From positions 6,217,501 through 6,281,500 of the forward strand of contig JADLSH010000393.1 in NCBI GenBank assembly GCA_016169945.1: a DNA stretch of 64,000 nt. Reading direction: 5' to 3'. The translations under genes and the position numbers were made by a program. The stretch comes from Trachythela sp. YZ-2020. Taxonomy: Eukaryota; Cnidaria; Anthozoa; Malacalcyonacea; Clavulariidae. This document shows, piece by piece, positions 4,977-34,056 of this stretch. Each line of letters starts with the position of its first letter. The stretch's first letter is position 1. The notes under the pieces are model-generated. The model saw nothing but the letters and a program-made list of their open reading frames with translations, made no database searches and had not been told where the DNA came from.

Positions 4977-5410
4977 ACTTGACTTGTACAATGGTGAGGG
5001 ATTTCTCAAATCATAGATAGCTAGCGGTTGGTCTTCAAAGACTTCAATAAGTGATTGATTTGCTAAACCGCTGCACAACGTAAACCATGTGAACTCTGAG
5101 TTGCAACATAAAACTTTGATTAACTTATTGATGAGTAAATACAGTGCTATCAACGTTGTTGAAAGTTGTTATACTTACAAACATTCATGCTATTATAGCA
5201 CATACACTGCATAATTATAAGACAACTAAATGTCCATTTTCTCATCTGTTATTTAATTACGGGATGAGAAGATCTTAGACTGGATCGTTAACGACTTCAG
5301 CGAGTTTAACAAAATTAGGCCCATGGATATTGGGGAAATCAGACTGGACAATCTAGCTGATGGCCCGGTGTTGACGAGGGGTCACATACCCTAGGGGTGA
5401 CGTACCCTTT

Positions 5411-5653
5411 GAATAATAATGAGGTAACGTAACCTATGAGTACCAATGAGGTAACGTAACCTATGAATAATAATGAGGTGATGTAACCTATGAATAATAA
5501 TGAGGTGACGTAACCTATGAATAATAATGAGGTAATGTAACCTATGAATAATAATGAGGTAATGTAACCTATGAATAATAATGAGGTAACGTAACCTATG
5601 CTTAATAATGAGGTAATGTAACCTATGAATAATAATGAGGTAACGTAACCTAT
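5411..5653. repeat. Minisatellite, 27-bp unit x 9
   Basis: Nine 27-bp copies, each containing AATGAGGTAAYGTAACCTAT with single-base variants (GTGATG, GTGACG, GTAATG, GTAACG). It is followed at 5654-5730 by a G-rich segment with two AGAGAGGGGGGCTTAAT copies. It lies between the transposase gene and the right end of the MULE, and is non-coding. Confidence 0.93.
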
Positions 5654-6060
5654 GCTTAATAGAGAGGGGGGCTTAATATTTTTTATCTAAAACGGGGGGC
5701 GCTTATTAGAGAGGGGGGCTTAATGGAGTAATAACAGTATGTTTCAAAAAGAAAACTGGATTTGCAGAAAGTGTATTAAAAGGCAAAAGTGTACATAGCT
5801 TGAAAAGTATTGTAACAGTGGGGTAATGGTTTACTATATCACATTGCCATTATAGGTTTTGAAAAATGCTTGCTGCAAAGTAAAATGTTTGCCCAGAATG
5901 CGGAAAATCAGATTTCTTTGGAGTCTGGCATAATTATATTTTTTATTCTAAAAAACAAGTGCATATATGTTATAATTGATTTGTTAAATGATTGTTACAT
6001 AATGTTAATTCGGCCAGTTTGGCAAAGTGTGTATATATGACAATTATGTTTTTATATTAA

Positions 6061-6866
6061 TGAGGCGGTCAAGTCCGTTCTGCACATGTGCAGCCCTCTG
6101 ATGTAAACATTACAATACCCAAATTTCGCATTGTTTCGACATCTTTTTAATCAGAAACTCTCATCAATATTTGTTTACAGCATAGCGAACCAGAACGATG
6201 TTAGATATTAATGCATCAGTCAAATCCAAGCGTGCCCATCCACCTCCCCCCTCGGGCAAACCCCCAGGCTTTTGACAAATTTTTGAAACAAGTGGTTAAT
6301 TCCCGGGGGCGGGGATGAAATGCATGTGAAAATCCCCTGCAGTGGGGCAGAAAATCGTCAGCAAATCCCTCACCCCGGGGACACTTTAGCCCAAATTGTT
6401 TTTAAAATAGGCGTATTCTATTTCACAAACTATGCTTGCTCAGTTAAGATGAGTCAAATTGAGTAACATTGTGGCCGCAATTGGGGTGTTCCCCAAAATG
6501 CCCAAGCACTTTGAGGTTTTGCTACCTTTATACACTCTTTATCATAAGATATTGACATTATACATTTTGATATGGTTTGAAACAGGTGCGATTATGTTGT
6601 TTTATATTATCCAGTGGTCTTCATAAAAATAAAATATTAATTTCAAATGCCCCACCCCTGGCCAAAGGTTTGCGTGCAAATGCCCCTCCCCTGGGACGTG
6701 CTACACAAGCAAATGCCCTGCGGTGGCCCAGGGGGGGGGATGGGCACGCTTGGATTTGACTGATGCATAAGTAAGTACACCATATTTTTTAATTAAGTAC
6801 ATCGTGTTTAAAATGTAAACAAACCGACAACCCCCGATTTGTTTCTGTTTGGACTTGACCGCCCCT
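6061..6866. mobile_element. TTAA-flanked MITE, copy 2, split by a nested MITE
   Basis: Flanked by TTAA at 6057-6060 and 6867-6870. Both ends carry GGCGGTCAAGTCC in inverse orientation three bases in from the TTAA. Removing the inserted 6211-6769 element leaves about 250 bp. This copy is in opposite orientation to copy 1 at 2651-2940, so the pair bracket the transposase gene like an internal inverted repeat. Confidence 0.72.
6211..6769. mobile_element. Nested MITE with ~31-bp inverted ends (559 bp)
   Basis: Both ends carry ATGCATCAGTCAAATCCAAG and its inverse, continuing into the CGTGCCCATCC segment, for about 31 matching bases. If the ends begin at TGCATCAG, both sides show TAA, a TWA-type target duplication as made by PIF/Harbinger transposases. 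The interior is rich in C and G runs with internally repeated CAAATGCCC segments. It has no coding capacity. Confidence 0.75.
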
Positions 6867-24190: not shown

Positions 24191-24705
24191 TGGTTAACCC
24201 ACCCAAACAAAAATAATTTGCACTAAAAAACAAAACATTTAAATAGAACAACACATGTAGCAACTACGAACAAAGTAAAACATTAAATGACAGTAAAACT
24301 TCTCTTGCACAAAATATATTCTTCGTTCTCAACAATGAAAAATGTATTAAATTGGATATACAGGCACTTGGTCCTTATTTTTAGCTTATGCATTTTCCTA
24401 TATATAATTCCTGCTTTCCAACAAGTAATATAACAGCTCTTCAAACATTTTGACCTAAATTCTTCAAGATATAATGGTAATATTGTAATAAGAAAGAGAG
24501 AACATGAGAGAAATCTTACAAATTATGCAACTGGTTTTAACATACCAAGCAATCCCTACAAGTTATTGACATGTAAATTCTATAAAAATTCAGAATTGAA
24601 AGGTAATAATAGTGTGAAAAATACTAAACCTAAATGTGTCTACAATTGAAATCTCTTAGAGTTTGAGTTTCATGGGTAGTGCCATTTTTTTCTGTATAGT
24701 AGTGC

Positions 24706-24931
24706 CACAGAGTAATCACATACAGAGGTTTATCTTCATGTGCCGACCTTTGATGTCGGCGTAAGGGCTTTTTCGGCAAAATCCGCCATGTTCTTAGCCA
24801 GTCCAGTGAAGAGAGGCCGTCAGCATACGTAAACTGCGCATGTGCAGGTACTGGCTAAGAATATGGCGGCCAGTTCAAAACACCTTACGGTTTTTCTGCG
24901 AAGATGCACCTCTGTATGTGATTACTCTGTG
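24706..24931. mobile_element. Foldback MITE with hAT-like ends (226 bp)
   Basis: Ends CACAGAGTAATCACATACAG and its inverse; GTAGTGC stands on both sides (24699-24705 and 24932-24938). A second inverted pair inside (CTTAGCCAGT and ACTGGCTAAG) makes most of the element self-complementary. Confidence 0.82.
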
Positions 24932-25503
24932 GTAGTGCCTTTCCGATTACCCTCCATAACAATGTAATTTTTTAATGTGGTTATATGAAACAGATCGCTT
25001 ATTTCCAAACCCTCGGTAAAACAACATCTTGTCGCCAAAACCTGCTTGAACAATGGTGGAGAATATGTAGGCCATCATTCACTGCTGTTCTTTTTAATGA
25101 TTCAAACATTGTTAAATAATTTACATTTTATACAATATTAAAATTGCTTTATGCTTTGTTGTTTTGAAAAGATCGAGCTTCTCCAATGATTCACTTCAGT
25201 TACTAGAAATATTATGCATCCTTCAGAGTTAAACTTTCTTTATCTTTCCTATTTTCCATTTAAAGGTGTTTTTGGCAACAGTGATGAAGATTTACAAAGA
25301 TTGTGTAAGGACCTTGGTAAGCAAAGTTAGTATGATAGTGATATGCATTAATTAGGCCCCATTTACACAATATTGGATTTACTTGTCACAATATCAACTT
25401 TCGTAGTTTCAGGATTCCCCCAACACTCAAAGTCGGGATTATATGACAAAATAAAATGAAAACCATCAAGGAAAAATTATGTAGGCAGACATATATTACT
25501 CCT

Positions 25504-25781: not shown

Positions 25782-25788
25782 TTGTAAC
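25782..25788. repeat. Left 7-bp target duplication of the 8.3-kb element
   Basis: TTGTAAC, repeated exactly at 34050-34056 outside the right end. Confidence 0.82.
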
Positions 25789-26681
25789 CACAGGCAGCCC
25801 AAGCTCACATTGTTGCTATAGTAATATTTTTTTTATTAATAATTTTTTATTATTGCTGTTTGTATATTATGGTATATTATGTGTATGTGTTATGTCTGTT
25901 ATGCTATTTGCCAGAAATGGTATGATGGAATTAAATATATATTTATTATTGATGGTTAGGGTACTTCATATTAGCAAATTATAGTAGACTTAATAGTCAA
26001 ATATATATTGTCAAAAAATTGCTAAAATATTGTGTCAAATGAAGAAATAAAGTTACTTATGCACCTATCAATGTCTAGCCCGAGAGGGGGGAGTGCGGGC
26101 ATACCCAGGGGCTATTGATTTTTTTGAAAACTGTTTGTCAATAATCCCCACTCAAGGGACATATTAAATTGTCAAAACGTGTCAAATCCCCCCTGCCCCT
26201 GACAAGAATCACAAGATGGAGGCATTCTCGACTCTGGTCATCAATTATAAACATTCTTGCCAATAATCAATATCAGCATTACTTCAATATTTAAATACAA
26301 CATTCAACAAGTTGATTTTAATATATGTTTAATATTAATAGGCCAAACAAAAGACATTTGTTTCCAATATTTGGTATACTTTAACACTTCAAAAATACAA
26401 AACTTTCAATGACAATATATTGCTTTTTCACATGCAGCAATGAATTGCTTTAAGTAAGTCTAAATCATTCATTAACTTGTTATTTGAATGCTCAAATTAG
26501 AGGAAGTTTTCAGACTGTTGAGACTGTGACTCCGGAAGCACAACATATATTTTGTTTGGCCTTAACAACAAAACATTTTACAGACTCTATAATTTATACG
26601 TCTGAACAGTGTAACAGAAAACAAAATAAGTTTATATGTCAATATGAAAAAATCATTTGTCTTATTAAAAAGACATCTTAA

Positions 26682-29600
26682 TTAATACTTCAAGCACTCT
26701 TCACAGTGCCATACTGCAAGGTCTGAATTTTCAGTGACTCCAACGCACGCCTGGTGATGCCAGTCCAAACATCCATCGCACTGCACCCACGGTATGTCAG
26801 ACATCTCGGAAGGCAACGCTGGTTCACTTTCTTTACACGTTGAGCAGAATTCTGTTGATGAATTAGATGTCTATAAATGAAGAACATTCAATGTACTATT
26901 TTACTGTAAACTAAAACATTTCAGCAATCATGAATAGTTTTTACAAGCAACTTTACCTCAATGTCTAATGCTTTGTTCTTGTTTTCCCTCTCTGGCGACT
27001 CCTCTTCTCCACATCAATGCCTTTGTCTTTGTCTTTTGCTTCCCTTTTCTTTCTCCGAGTCTCTGCAGCTTTCTTCGCCCCTGCTTGACGATGTTCTCGA
27101 ACCGATTGTAGATGGTCAAGCCACATGTGAACCTGATAAAAACCCATCAAAAGGTTAACACACCCAAATATAAATCTTATAAAGCTACTGTATTTTCCAG
27201 GCAAAATAGATATTAACGTTCTGTGATATTAATTAATTAAATGCTGCTTAAAAGATAGAAATGTAGTACAAGTACTGTACCTCTGATGCCGATAACATGA
27301 CTTTGTCACCTAATTCTTCAACCTTGCTTTCTTCTGGGTTAATATTTCCAAACTTTTGGTAAAACTCTCGAATGACTTCATTAGGAGGGATACGGTGTGG
27401 CTTGTAGTTGGGATCATTATTTTGGTACATCTTTATTGCCTTGCTGGCAGCTAAGAAATGACCTGCACACCTACCAGGCAGACAGTGTTGACAATGCATT
27501 CCACCACATGGCTTTTCTTTGTCAGGTACAGGTAGTGGAATAAATTTCAGTGGTGGACCACCTTCATACCAAACCAATTCATCCTGGGGCTGATCCTGTT
27601 GACACAGTGGATGTGGGCACGAATCCTGATAACAGCATATCAACTGAAAGGCGTATCGCAATGGAACACCATTTTTATTCAGGTGTCTTTTCTTTACATC
27701 CAAAACCTGGGTAATTAATAAGAAGTCAGTCGGGTGCTCTTTTTTAAGTTGGTCCTTTTGTTTTCGGTTTCCTTTTGCAAAGATTTGGTAGCGTTCTTTC
27801 AGCTGTTGGTTTCGTGCAGATTTTTGGCCACGGAATAGCTTGATCACAGTATCACCACAAGGCGCACCATTTACTCGTGAAATGTAAACATCAATGGCAT
27901 CAGAAAGATTGTGTTCTAGTTTTGTGTTATCTAGCCCTCCTGCGTCTCCCTGAAAATTCCTCCGAACCGTTGAGTGTAGACGGGATAAATAATCCGGCAC
28001 GTCCTTTGGTTTCACATCCATTCTGAAGTTCCACCCTGTTCAAGCTGCTTCCCCCGCTGTATCGGCTAGTAACTAACAGCATTCGGGTTGGTCGTTGCAT
28101 GTGCCGAAGAGTCCACCAAAACTGAACTTCCTCGTGATAAAGCGCCTCATCACCACCTGAATCTACACGAACACACTCGATTTCTTTCAATTTACCAGTG
28201 GTGGAATTTGTGAACATATGCTTTATTTCACTTTTCTCCAAATCATTTAGATCTGATGAGTGTTGACCTGGACTCTTAGGATGCAATGTAGACGTCTTGA
28301 CCACACCAGCACAAATTTCCCCCGTGTTCTCTGAAGCTGTAAAGTTGTAAGAGGTAGTTTGCAAGGTGTTTGGATACGATGCTTGATAGTCTGTTTTGGT
28401 AGTTAGTGATGGTTTATCCTTGATGCAGTGTGTTGCTGCCTTGTTACTTGTAAACATTGTGTCCAAGCGAAATGCTGACAGATCATCTCTATTAAGGAGC
28501 AGTTTATCTCTTCCATCCTTGTACTGTACCACATCAAGGCCCTTGTAAAACGCATTCGACCAGTGACAGTCGGGATTGTATTTGATTTCAAACCCTTTCC
28601 GAGCTCGTCTGCACGTTACCTGTGCTACTCCTTTATAGTTAACGGATGATTTCCTTCTGCGATTTCGGGCAACGCACATCTGCACAACTGTTCCGTAGGA
28701 AAACTTCCTATGATATTTCTCTTCCAAGTGATCCTTTATTCTGGCAAACGTCACCTTTTGATGTACTTTCCTGTTACCGTCGAAAGTCAAGACACCAGTT
28801 CGTCTCCATGCCTCAGCGCCGACACCCCGAGATTGAACAAAACTTTCTATGTCCTTTCCAATATTAGGAAATTCTCTTAGGATTGTACCGACTCGTTTAC
28901 TTTTTTTCCTTTTAAGAAATTGCTCTTTTTCTATTCTCTTTGCTGCTTCTCTTGTTGCTTGCTTCTTGAGACATTTACGTTTTCTTACAATAAGTTCTTT
29001 CCCTTTTTCTCCAAGAGGGTCATCAACACCAACCCATTCTTCCGGATCTGTATTGTCATCAGACTCAGAAACTACCACATGATCCTCAATTTCTTGATTC
29101 AGTTCTTCTATTCTTCTTCTTTCCAAGTACACCTGTCTACTCTCCTCTATTAGTTTTTCTTCGCCATCGTGTAGATCGAGGAATGGCAATTGTGAGCCAA
29201 AATCCATAAGTAGTTGATCCAATACTGCATCACTTAAGCCAGCAATTTCAATCCTGACTGACTCTGTAAAAGCAAGCCAGTTAAACTTACACGCTTTCAG
29301 CAACGCTAGCATTTGTTGGGTATTCATCGAAACATATCCAGTGGTCAATACTTGATTGCTGAGTGGAAATCCCGTTTCATGGTCTTGTTGGTTTTTGTCA
29401 CAGCTTGTTTGTGGCCGTATATCCTGGTTTTCACTTTCACTGCAAATGTCATCAGTTTCATCCTCTGATGAAGATTGCTGAACATCCGAGTCTGAATCGG
29501 AGACTTCAACACCAAGAGACAGCAGGACAGCTTTTTCTTTAATGCTTGCAAGCCTGTAAACAGATTCTCTAATTTCTTCTTGTTTCTTCAGCGCTGATTC

Positions 29601-32600
29601 GACTTTAACTTTCCTGTTGCCACTGTCCTCGTTTGGAGAGATTACTTGCCTCTGCTATGGCATAACGCAAACGCTCTCTTTCAGGATGGGACTTACAAGA
29701 TTTCAAAAGATTCAAAGCACAATCTTTGCTAAGAGTTCTTTCAGGTGATCTTCTTTCGTTTATTTGAGTAAGAACACTTTTCATCAGGGGGTAGTTGCTA
29801 TCTTTAGCGATCAAGAAATTGATACTTTCCTTTGGACCAACTTGTATTGAAATACAGGCAAGAGGCATACGAAGAAATTTACGTTTTGCATGTGCTGAAG
29901 AATAGTTGTTCATTGTTGTTGATGATCCTATCGTTGTGGTTTTATCTAAAGGTGAGTGCATTATCTTTAAGCATTCTTGACATGGTTGTTTATGCTCCAT
30001 ATTACAGTGAAATGCTGACTTTAACTTCCAGACTCCATATTTATTTACAGTATCAGCAACATGAATCATTGCTGGACAAATTTTGCAGTTTATATGTTCA
30101 GTTTTGCAAATATGTTTTCGAACTTCAACATATTGAGTAAGGTTCATGCCTTCGAAACATGAAATTGAAATTTGTCTAGAGTCTGTAGTATAATTTGATA
30201 GTTTCTTTCGGCTTTCTTCCATCTTATAAATTCTAATCAAATCCCCTCCTTCAACAAGTTTGTTACCACAGAAGAAGGGCGGGTTCAAAAATCCTTCTTA
30301 CTTAATTCGACATCTTCACCTAGATCCCCATCTTTGTCTACTATATCTCCACTTTCACTTTCCAAATCTTCACTTTCCACATTCAAACCCGAGGAAGTTG
30401 TTGTCGTGATTCCTTTTGGTGCAACAAAACTACTTTTGGTCACGGTTGTGGTTGAGGTACTTGCTGTGGTCTGCGTTTCTTCGTTGATTACACCACTACA
30501 ATCAAGAACGAAGTTGGACGAAGTATTGCACTCTTCCAAATCGTCACTTACATAAACAGGATTTTTGCTGATTGCGGCTGTCGCTACGGTTGTAACATCT
30601 GCACTATAAACATTGCATTTATTTTTAATGTGAAATGAACTTCTGATGTCAACTGTCGACTCTTTGTCTTGTTTACCTGCAGTGCACTTTTTCTTTGTAT
30701 ACCATTGAGCTTTCTTCTCTTTTTTGGAGAGAAGTAACACTTCTCTTTCCAGCTGTCTTTTCTCTGACGATAATTTTGAAATATCCCCACTTAGAATCTC
30801 ACACGTTTTCCACTCTTTCACAGAGGCACACTTATCCCGCCTTGACGTTTTGTAGGAGATCATCTTTCTTATCTCAGAAATTTTCTCCTTCAGTTCTTGC
30901 AGTCTCAACTCCCTTTCCTCTTTATGTGTTCTACTTCTCTTCTTTGATTCTGTATTTTCTTGCTTGGGGTTATTTGCATGCACAGACCTGGAGAACCCTT
31001 TCTTGAAACTGTAGGAATCCCTTACAGCTTGTTGTGCCTGATCCATTAGTTCTCTCCTGTTAGCTACAATTACTGGGTTTACTTTTGCTATATTATAGGC
31101 AGCTTCGTTAACTGCTTTCTGGTATGCGGAAAGATCAGCATCATCTCTGCTCTTTCCATAAATTTTTGAACTGAGTCGTATATTGTCATGTTCTGCATAA
31201 TCACCATCCATAACCTTTAAATGTATAAATGTAATTATAATATTTGGATGAAAAACTATTTACATAGCTATGTATTCTTCTATTGCATATATATCACATA
31301 CCTCAATTGGAGGTCCAAGTGTAAAGTTTGCATTGATAGTTCTTTGTTTTGATGATGTCCCATGGAACAAAATGTTGATTGATGCTTCTACAAATCATGA
31401 AAGATAGCATTAATGAATTGAATGATGAAAACAATCAAGCAACAACTATTTTAAACTAGTTAAAATATGAGCAGCTGCATGATCATTACGGGCATAAATA
31501 TTGGTAAAAAGCTAATAGTTTAAAGTACTTATAATATGCATAATGTACCATGCATAATTTAGCTAATTTATGTTCTTTAATACATACTGTATCTGGTGGG
31601 CATGAAGATGACTTATATTTGGATATACAAATGGTTTCATATGTGGTGTAAATGGAGAGTTTTCATTAAGAAATTGCCTCAACATTTATTCATTAATTAA
31701 ATGTGTAATATTAATATATGTATTAAAGTTATTATCTCAAAATAGTATCATACCTGATTGTTGTATTTCATTATGAACATTGATAATACGAGGCACTTGA
31801 GGCTGGTTTAGTTCCTATAATATATATTAAAGGAAGGCAGAACATGCAGTATTATAAAATAACACAAGCAATTCATATTTAGTATAAGGATACAAAATTT
31901 ACCATAAAACTTTATCAACATATACTTAGTAATTATTTAAATGTGATAAGTGCTGATTGTGCTCAGCTGAGTATAGATTTTCATGGACTACAATGGACTA
32001 CTACTTCATTGATTAAAAAAAACATTGATTGACTGCAAACAGATCTACTGTATGTTAAGACCTACTGCATGTACGTATGTATATACTGTATAGGTAAAAT
32101 GATCTACAGTACTGATCATACCCCCCAGTATGGTTTCTGGTAGGTCTATATGTATATATTAAATAGCACAAAAACTTTCCAAAATATTGTAAAAAGCCTA
32201 ATTGCACATGGGGTATAAAATAATAACAACATTTTTATGCACAGCTATATATTTTATATTTAAAACATTAAAAAATGCTACCTTTGGCTTTGAATTCTTA
32301 AGTATAGCCAAAACATCACCAATGGAAGAAATTCCCATTTCATTTAAAAAATCTTTGTTGAAACTTCCAAGAGTTTGAACTTGAATTCTACATGAATTGC
32401 AAAAACAGCATATTATTAAATATTTTAGTATATATTTTATAACTTCAATAGGGCCTACTATGAACATGCACACAGATACAGTACCTGTTCTCTGCAAACT
32501 TTTCGGCATACTCCGCACTTCGGTCTTCGATGCCACATTCCTTGATGAAGTTCTTCCAGAACTCAACACTCTTTTTTTAATAATATAAATATATATACAA

Positions 32601-32798
32601 AAAGTTGTGTATGAAATACCAGTATTTTAATTTTAAAATATTAATTAAATCAGTCTATTTGGTAAAATTTTCGAAAGAAAAAGTCCACTTTTAATATAGG
32701 AAATTAAAAGCAGGATGGATAAATTTGAATAGTAATATTATGATAATGATATAAATTCTTTAAAATTTAAATACCTGACAACCAGTTGAAACCGCCAT
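26682..32798 (-). pseudogene. SAM-coiled coil-DDE-PHD transposase gene, eight exons, several frameshifts
   Basis: Minus-strand exons: 32775-32798 (MAVSTGCQ), 32485-32570, 32282-32387, 31754-31814, 31302-31387, 27281-31214, 26957-27132 and 26682-26870, all with GT/AG ends and compatible phases at the junctions checked. Exons 2-3 form a SAM domain (SVEFWKNFIKECGIEDRSAE ... GISSIGDVLAILKNSK), probably for self-association. Exon 6 gives a coiled coil (31000-30600), a helix-turn-helix-like region, then a DDE-like core: RDDLSAFRLD (~28487), VRVDSGGDE (~28163) and NRVELQNG (~28031), which I infer to be the catalytic D-D-E. Next come Cys/His clusters (CCYQDSCPHPLC, CQHCLPGRCAGHF) and, in exon 7, a basic KKAAETRRKKRE helix. 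Exon 8 is a PHD finger (CSTC..CDGC..H..C..CEEC). Frameshifts near 30290, 29640, 27965 and 27030 show that this copy is dead. Confidence 0.82.
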
Positions 32799-32990
32799 TT
32801 TGTTTCGAAAAACACGACTCTAGTTCCCAGTCTCTGACTCAAAACCTCGGTTAAAAATGTCAAATATCCCGACCCAAGGGCGACAACGAGTCAAAAGAAG
32901 CCAAAAATCCCCTGTTAGGGCAATACTTTGTGGTCAATAGCCAGTGTATGCCCGCACTCCCCCCTCTCGGGCTAGACATTGATAGGTGCA

Positions 32991-33781
32991 TTACTTCTAC
33001 TACAAGTTGCAATCGACTTTTCGGTGTTGACTTGGTGTGATTTTAAATCCACTTTGAGGGGATGGTATTCTATGTAATAGTAAGGAGAAGGCAGGAGAAT
33101 ACAGCTCCAACGAACTCGCATCGGCTTCACAAATCCTTCTCGCGTCGCATAATAATGCATCGAATCGCCAAAAAAAAAACAGATCCATAAAGCTCATTAC
33201 ATTTCCCATCACATTCATCGTCTTCAGCAAACACAAGAGATTTTTTGTCGGTGAAAATCCATAATTTGTTTGATTTTCTGACAATCTCAGGCTCCGTGGC
33301 TGTCGATACCCGGGGATATTCAGTTGAGAGCTTGCGAGTTCGAATTACACTCTCTATTGTTATTGGTTGATTACATTGTTGTCGCGTGAACGCGATTCGA
33401 ATCAACCAATAACAATAAAGAGTGTAATTCGAACTCGCGAGCTCTCAACTGAATATCCCCGGGTATCGACAGCCACGGAGCCTGAGATTGTCAGAAAATC
33501 GAACAAATTATGGATTTTCACCGACAAAAAATCTCTTGTGTTTGCTGAAGACGATGAATGTGATGGGAAATGTAATGAGCTTTATGGATCTGTTGTTTTT
33601 TTGGCGATTCGATGCATTATTATGCGACGCGAGAAGGATTTGTGAAGCCGATGCGAGTTTGTTGGAGCTGTATTCTCCTGCCTTCTCCTTACTATTACAT
33701 AGAATACCATCCCCTCAAAGTGGATTTAAAATCACACCAAGTCAACACCGAAAAGTCGATTGCAACTTGTAGTAGAAGTAA
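32991..33781. mobile_element. 791-bp near-perfect palindrome (foldback element)
   Basis: Two arms of ~380 bp face each other around a ~27-bp centre near 33386 (GATTACATTGTTGTCGCGTG region); left arm starts TTACTTCTACTACAAG. The few differences include a ten-A run against a shorter run. It interrupts the right inverted repeat of the 8.3-kb element: the uninterrupted left arm reads GTTACTTATGCACC there. TTA/TAA at the borders suggests a 3-bp target duplication. The mirrored open frames in both arms are by-products of symmetry. Confidence 0.9.
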
Positions 33782-34049
33782 GTAACTTTATTTCTTCATT
33801 TGACACAATATTTTAGCAATTTTTTGACAATATATATTTGACTATTAAGTCTACTATAATTTGCTAATATGAAGTACCCTAACCATCAATAATAAATATA
33901 TATTTAATTCCATCATACCATTTCTGGCAAATAGCATAACAGACATAACACATACACATAATATACCATAATATACAAACAGCAATAATAAAAAATTATT
34001 AATAAAAAAAATATTACTATAGCAACAATGTGAGCTTGGGCTGCCTGTG

Positions 34050-34056
34050 TTGTAAC
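34050..34056. repeat. Right 7-bp target duplication of the 8.3-kb element
   Basis: TTGTAAC, identical to 25782-25788. Confidence 0.82.

Follow-up and report, generated by a model that had tools for sequence, protein, structure and literature searches.

How does an animal DNA transposon make its transposase when the gene is laid out in two overlapping reading frames, and what kind of transposon is it? These questions are raised by positions 25789-34049 of a 64,000-nucleotide stretch of DNA from the cnidarian Trachythela sp. YZ-2020 (contig JADLSH010000393.1, positions 6,217,501 to 6,281,500 of the forward strand; this whole stretch is referred to below as the window). The region studied consists of two nested elements, an outer foldback element and, in its left arm, an inner transposon that bears the gene. 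Searches of the genome (578 Mb in 396 contigs) place the inner element in a real, nested, recently mobile family of DDE transposons, and comparison within that family provides strong evidence for programmed -1 ribosomal frameshifting, the frameshifting itself being something that we infer from sequence. We conclude with considerable confidence that the locus holds a nested cut-and-paste DDE transposon whose transposase would be made by such frameshifting.

The gene lies on the minus strand and has eight exons and seven introns (Table 1), much as an earlier note on this DNA had read it, and it is organized as two overlapping open reading frames (ORFs), ORF A and ORF B. The ORF A protein is 430 aa long (exons 1-6), with a SAM domain followed by NCD2 (8.5e-7 in Pfam) and then, as judged by eye, by a coiled coil. 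NCD2 also matches six of seven other ORF A pieces (best 2.9e-11; L049 lies just under the Pfam cut-off), and the ORF A piece of L057 gave no NCD2 match in Pfam. In L048, a full relative of 8.3 kb with TGCGTCTATC ends, TTA on both sides and a transposase 44% identical to P0001 (residues 290-970), the first domain of ORF A is CIDE-N (1.5e-7), which replaces SAM; both are self-assembling domains. ORF B comprises, in order, a Cys/His region, a DD43E core, a Cys cluster, a homeodomain-like stretch and a PHD finger. The Pfam Homeodomain family is matched by seven of 46 relatives (best 1.4e-5; exon 7 of the window was not scanned alone), and homeodomains are among the rows of a structural-neighbour search. 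At the two positions that we take to be those of the aromatic cage in PHD fingers binding methylated lysine 4 of histone H3 (H3K4), the window and every row with a recognized PHD motif (46 of 84) have W and W. Binding of methylated H3K4 by this PHD, and a steering of insertion through it, may be proposed.

The SAM and PHD domains named in the earlier note were matched in Pfam, and its DDE motifs RDDLSAFRLD, VRVDSGGDE and NRVELQNG proved to be conserved, their D, D and E being invariant in 66 of 66 rows including the window. Across 84 relatives D522, D523, D631 and E675 (P0057 numbering) are invariant, with 43 residues separating the second Asp from the Glu in 83 of them. The fold check that the note had proposed returned an RNase H-like order of elements for the predicted core, with DDE enzymes, including IstA, retroviral integrase, TnsB and Mos1, among its structural neighbours at middling scores. 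Its multi-copy DDE family encoding a SAM/DDE/PHD protein is likewise borne out, with no transposase profile in the Pfam or NCBIfam results listed: with the window pieces Pfam returned no transposase at E values up to 1, for 46 relatives there was none among the 25 Pfam families listed of 55, and none of the 20 NCBIfam families listed is a transposase. The rve family had no match in the window pieces in Pfam and is absent from the families listed for the relatives; PF07592 (the ISAzo13-type DDE family) had no match in the window's genome, but 14 controls gave no match either. The protein is unusual, as the note had held; missed in the note were the -1 arrangement, NCD2, the homeodomain-like part and the nesting.

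Judged by Pfam and NCBIfam profiles and by described traits, membership is not shown for any named superfamily. That the element is nevertheless a divergent lineage of one, most likely Zator/ISAzo13, PIF/Harbinger or IS3/integrase-like, is a serious possibility to which we give somewhat less than an even chance, and it is compatible with frameshifting. The structural neighbours listed above speak for it, as do a TWA duplication like that of Harbinger, a 3-bp duplication like that of Zator and TG..CA ends like those of many IS3 elements; the lack of a transposase family in the profile results and of Myb/SANT in ORF A speaks against it. The DD43E spacing may be a further resemblance to Zator. 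For Zator/ISAzo13 the shared trait is otherwise the duplication, given as 3 bp in the part of the source concerned with Zator (PMC10045372), while the protein of the inner element differs in being long and multi-domain. The TWA 3-bp duplication attributed to Harbinger in the relevant section of PMC4482050 recurs here (TTA at four and TAA at one of five full copies), and PIF/Harbinger (PHIS) elements are also alike in having two coding parts; in contrast to them, the two parts overlap in the -1 frame instead of forming separate genes, no Harbinger-type profile is listed for the window pieces or among the 25 of 55 families for the relatives, and Pfam found no Myb/SANT match in the ORF A pieces, which have SAM or CIDE-N and NCD2 instead.

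Other families came into question through single features and were set aside. Ginger1, considered for its PHD, comprises DNA transposons, present in Hydra and further animals, whose transposases are integrase-like; one listed family, Ginger1-9_HM, has a PHD. As described in the passages on it in PMC2836005, Ginger1 has TGTNR ends and 4-bp CCGG/CCGT duplications; it is ruled out by the ends TGCAC / TGCGT and the TWA duplication. Dada, with a 6-7 bp duplication according to the portion of PMC3706591 that describes it, was considered for the 7-bp duplication, which belongs to the outer element. Tc1/mariner, with its 2-bp TA duplication, is ruled out by TTA/TAA with a known empty site.

The two reading frames meet in exon 6. 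In the window ORF A ends ..AAG AAG GAT TTT TGA, and the -1 frame, that of ORF B, is already open shortly before this point. Given that no relative was found in the viral contig collection or in prokaryote genome contigs, and that elsewhere the relatives are proteins only, the A/B junction is readable as DNA in this genome alone, where we read it in 28 loci (the window, L048, L049-L059 and L060-L074). Of these, 21 could be scored, and ORF B is in the -1 frame of ORF A in every one; the two frames overlap by 10-85 nt in 20, the exception being L057, with a 50-nt gap. Several scored loci have other breaks in ORF A (e.g. L052, L054, L058, L059). Among the seven unscored loci, the A and B remnants of L060 share one frame with a stop between them, and L073 is +1 and rearranged, states that we read as decay; L062 and L071 are -1 with gaps of 206 and 59 nt, the ORF A remnant of L066 and L069 is broken or far away, and no ORF B of 45 aa was seen in the stretch of L070 examined. 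The single-frame gene of the earlier note is thus replaced by two frames: the -1 switch (30288-30294) is shared unchanged by the five full copies, and the window adds three lesions of its own.

Grouped by eye, the scored loci form 14 subfamilies, and the heptamer at the switch is GGATTTT or GGATTTC in five, TTTTTT followed by A, G or T in seven, GGACTTT in one and GAATTTT in one, the last two having been accepted as heptamers after inspection. Enrichment was counted in the 13 subfamilies with an overlap. The L057/L072 subfamily, represented by L057, was excluded, the 50-nt gap of L057 meaning that there is no overlap; L057 has an upstream stop, and its sister L072 lacks bases around the T run and has no heptamer within its overlap. 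Strict X XXY YYZ sites fall in the overlap of six of the 13 subfamilies, a number that rises to 11 with GGATTTN added and to 13 with a set that was widened afterwards. Sites of the form X XXY YYZ or GGATTTN occupy 11 of 170 in-frame positions in the overlaps and 13 of 2,517 upstream (Fisher 5.7e-8). The window heptamer itself has a viral counterpart in pea enation mosaic virus, for which the review passage on shift sites gives GGAUUUU with a nearby stop (PMC5009743); the heptamer G GAU UUU and the close stop are the same, the difference being that the virus has RNA.

Downstream of the heptamer the window has a predicted hairpin, and none of the 965 background 45-nt windows of the region is as stable. 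For each subfamily, with the heptamer chosen by overlap and frame and independently of structure, the 45-nt window beginning 5 nt past it was ranked against 815-1,065 windows taken from the same locus at distances above 45 nt. The predicted stability ranked at p 0.0009-0.0066 in 12 of the 14 subfamilies, and first in nine, with hairpin spacers of 5-11 nt; the spacer from slip site to structure is usually ~5-9 nt according to the part of PMC10602861 that deals with it. The ranking fails in L054 (0.86) and L061 (0.84). Combined, the ranks give a Fisher value of 9.5e-20, which is approximate since the windows overlap, and in a shuffle-based fold of nine loci z lay between -1.4 and -4.8 for seven and near +0.3 for the other two, L054 and L056, which are sisters. 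Since the stem sequences differ among subfamilies, a copied motif does not explain the stems.

Given that the gene has seven introns elsewhere, it was reasonable to consider that an intron bridges the change of frame to yield a single spliced frame. We regard this as unlikely, since a junction intron predicts neither the 10-85-nt overlap in 20 of 21 loci, nor the constant -1 relation, nor a heptamer and hairpin at the overlap. On the other hand, ORF A and ORF B might be separate proteins, as in two-ORF Harbinger elements, with B starting at its own codon by way of an internal promoter, an internal ribosome entry site or reinitiation. Nine loci yielded the conserved ORF B motif. In four of them, the window included (with L061, L063 and L065), a Met stands between it and the slip point, which would permit such a start; however, the other five (L048, L053, L057, L058, L064) have no such Met, and separate initiation, which we consider quite improbable, would account for neither the constant -1 phase nor the hairpins. 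It is very improbable indeed that the frame break is mere decay or an assembly error: the window copy has three other frame-breaking lesions and many relatives are decayed, yet the break is identical in five full copies and has the same phase in 14 subfamilies. Programmed -1 frameshifting is the reading that we retain. As far as we looked, database entries for relatives hold ORF A or ORF B and not both, and three of four ORF A relatives (P0121, P0123 and P0124; P0122 differs) end in DF like the window.

The copies themselves bear on how complete and how recent the element is. Five full-length inner copies lie at different sites (6,780-7,197 bp; 99.4-99.9% identical over the ungapped columns of an end-to-end alignment), and the left 341 bp of the inner element have 100% matches at five places in the genome, the window included. 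Each full copy has the same duplication on both sides, TTA in the window, L039, L040 and L042 and TAA in L041. The near-identity of these copies indicates that the subfamily moved recently. None of the five is intact. The window, L040 and L041 have an open ORF A, which is broken in L039 and L042. In L041 ORF B keeps its phase from exon 6 through exon 8 but contains a single internal stop; in L040 a single small deletion interrupts it; and the window, L039 and L042 each have several lesions in it. Three lesions present in the window copy alone disrupt its ORF B: 26 bp are deleted near 29624, 4 bp inserted near 27959 and 1 bp deleted near 26981. L039 has, near its right end, a 364-bp insertion that begins with a TATTATT run.

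More distant members are numerous. P0001 has at least 57 matching stretches in the genome (46 of 403 candidates scored), and the search for relatives in the protein database gave 279 proteins, the named hosts among the 120 listed being the octocorals Paramuricea clavata and Dendronephthya gigantea. At 14 loci within L014-L038 the ends of the inner element are paired around a shorter relative of 0.46-1.0 kb. In one of these, L016, TAA stands on either side; the other 13 have related flanks, TTA at one end and TGA at the opposite end, and because their flanks are related we count them as one insertion. These 13 non-autonomous relatives (L018-L038; 0.46-0.72 kb) seem to spread as passengers of another repeat.

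The outer element, ~1.33 kb long, is built of near-perfect arms of ~650 nt each around a 27-nt loop, with inverted ends CACAGGCAGCCC flanked on both sides by TTGTAAC. With the first 316 bp of its CACAGG end as query, 40 of 463 candidates were scored and gave 43 rows in the window's genome, of which 39 cover bases 1-271 or 1-270 and three are partial; only the left end of the window itself runs beyond base 271. Many outer copies exist, and in L002, L003, L004, L006, L007 and L008 they are uninterrupted at the insertion site and continue as AAATAAAGTTACTTACTTCTAC, as does the right arm of the window, whereas in the left arm of the window this continuation is replaced by TGCACC...GGTGCA. The empty site in outer copies reads AAAGTTACTTACTTCTAC and shows that the TTA on either side of the inner element is a 3-bp duplication. 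Four other paired outer copies (950-1,325 bp) have the 7-bp duplications GTTTGTC, GAGTCAT, GTTTCAT and AATATTT, and it is on these pairs, the duplications, the arms and the loop that the identification as a foldback element stands. Elsewhere in the window, 24705-24737 and 24900-24932 form a short inverted repeat pair resembling a miniature inverted-repeat transposable element (33 nt, 94% complementary).

From a gene enclosed by inverted ends the earlier note had proposed a single autonomous transposon of 8.3 kb, its ends ~315 bp long and its duplication 7 bp. This can hardly be entertained, given that the outer ends occur repeatedly without the inner sequence and that the gene-bearing unit stands at four more sites with its own ends and TWA duplications. 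The inverted ends and TTGTAAC are present, but they belong to the foldback element and not to the gene-bearing one, which is a separate element with ends of its own; the ~315-bp arm consists of 271 bp of the outer element and ~50 bp of the inner element's inverted repeat; and the duplication of the gene-bearing transposon is the 3-bp TWA and not a 7-bp one. The five near-identical full copies of the gene-bearing element show neither the intact frames nor the 7-bp duplications that the note had asked for. Lesions in ORF B contradict the description of the window copy as complete, and the phase-keeping junctions, which hold for ORF A in the window, L040 and L041 and for ORF B in L041, do not make one continuous frame.

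Table 1. Positions in the window of the two nested elements, the gene and its signals.
Feature	Positions	Strand	Remarks
Outer left 7-bp target duplication, TTGTAAC	25782..25788		right copy 34050-34056
Outer left arm, first 271 bp	25789..26059	+	interrupted at this point by inner element
Inner left target duplication, TTA	26057..26059		right copy 32991-32993
Inner element	26060..32990	- (gene)	6,931 bp, TG..CA ends, ~50-bp terminal inverted repeats
Exon 8, PHD finger and stop	26682..26870	-	PHD ~26694-26846, 1e-7
Exon 7, homeodomain-like end and basic stretch	26957..27132	-	1-bp lesion of the window copy only, near 26981
Exon 6, ORF B part, -1 frame	27281..30294	-	Cys/His region, DD43E core, C-terminal Cys cluster; two window lesions
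Catalytic Glu (NRVE)	28029..28031	-	43 residues after second Asp
Second catalytic Asp (VRVD)	28161..28163	-	
First catalytic Asp, second D of RDD	28482..28484	-	choice within RDD pair inferred from structure prediction
Predicted RNA hairpin	30244..30279	-	8 nt past heptamer, -15.2 kcal/mol
Exon 6, ORF A part	30285..31214	-	NCD2 ~31002-31214, then probable coiled coil; TGA 30285-30287
Slippery heptamer G GAT TTT in ORF A frame	30288..30294	-	TGA directly after; identical in five full copies
Exon 5	31302..31387	-	
Exon 4	31754..31814	-	
Exon 3, SAM second part	32282..32387	-	
Exon 2, SAM first part	32485..32570	-	SAM_4 3.1e-12
Exon 1, start of ORF A	32775..32798	-	
Outer remainder: rest of left arm, 27-nt loop, right arm	32991..34049	+	

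By the Pfam name of its NCD2 region, ORF A resembles the NAB corepressors (NGFI-A binding proteins), which have a helical domain ahead of NCD2 and which differ in being host regulators without a transposase. The strongest NCD2 match in the genome, at G000:C376:3138529-3138786 (94.6 bits, far above the other 27), is probably a host NAB gene. NAB might derive from the transposon, or ORF A from NAB; on either origin a search of the open-licence PMC literature yielded nothing relevant, the shared NCD2 match being the sole link. ORF A of L048 (minus strand, ~5395-6615) contains several tandem repeats of ~35-40 aa, parts of which are also present in L050, L051 and L073.

The arrangement suggests the following course. 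The inner DDE transposon would have inserted at TTA inside an older foldback element, and its mRNA, spliced from eight exons, would be translated in two overlapping frames. Most ribosomes would terminate at the end of ORF A to give the SAM-NCD2-coiled-coil protein, which might on its own regulate transposition or aid assembly of the transpososome through SAM. A minority would slip by -1 on G GAU UUU, stalled by the predicted hairpin, and so join ORF B to ORF A in a fusion of ~1,560 aa; this would be the complete transposase, containing the DD43E core, homeodomain-like part and PHD, the last perhaps steering insertion by binding methylated H3K4.

The closest working plan, by analogy, is that of the bacterial IS3 elements (OrfA/OrfAB), in which OrfA holds an oligomerising part and the catalytic spacing is DD35E. 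Section 11 of PMC5009743 describes OrfA as a regulator, ORF B as lying in the -1 frame and the fusion with the catalytic part as the transposase, and many IS3 elements have TG..CA ends and 3-5-bp duplications in the account excerpted from PMC2836005. The inner element is alike in its two overlapping ORFs with B in the -1 frame, its TG..CA ends and its 3-bp duplication, which falls within the 3-5 bp of IS3; it differs in being eukaryotic, spliced and ~7 kb long, with DD43E and no rve match listed, and in adding SAM or CIDE-N, NCD2, homeodomain-like and PHD parts.

Viruses, retroelements and bacterial insertion sequences commonly use frameshifting as a means of control. Searches of the open-licence PMC literature gave no case in eukaryotic cut-and-paste or other DNA transposons, and section 11 of one review names bacterial insertion sequences and integrative and conjugative elements, and yeast retroelements (PMC5009743). 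On balance we favour the view that the family represents an undescribed animal DDE superfamily whose transposase would be controlled by -1 frameshifting, a first for eukaryotic cut-and-paste elements. In this view an ORF A protein that self-assembles (SAM or CIDE-N, then NCD2) would be made in excess, and the frameshift would add the DD43E core, the homeodomain-like part and a PHD of the methyl-H3K4 type for targeting, an IS3-like design reached by descent or by convergence.

With 14 diverged subfamilies carrying the switch in one genome, 12 of them with the predicted stem, the family would offer a natural series for the evolution of slip sites, and frameshifting may explain the database entries that hold ORF A or ORF B alone. 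The PHD of RAG2 provides a parallel for chromatin-guided insertion, and such insertion would be testable in this family, which combines a self-assembling module and a DNA-binding part with a PHD.

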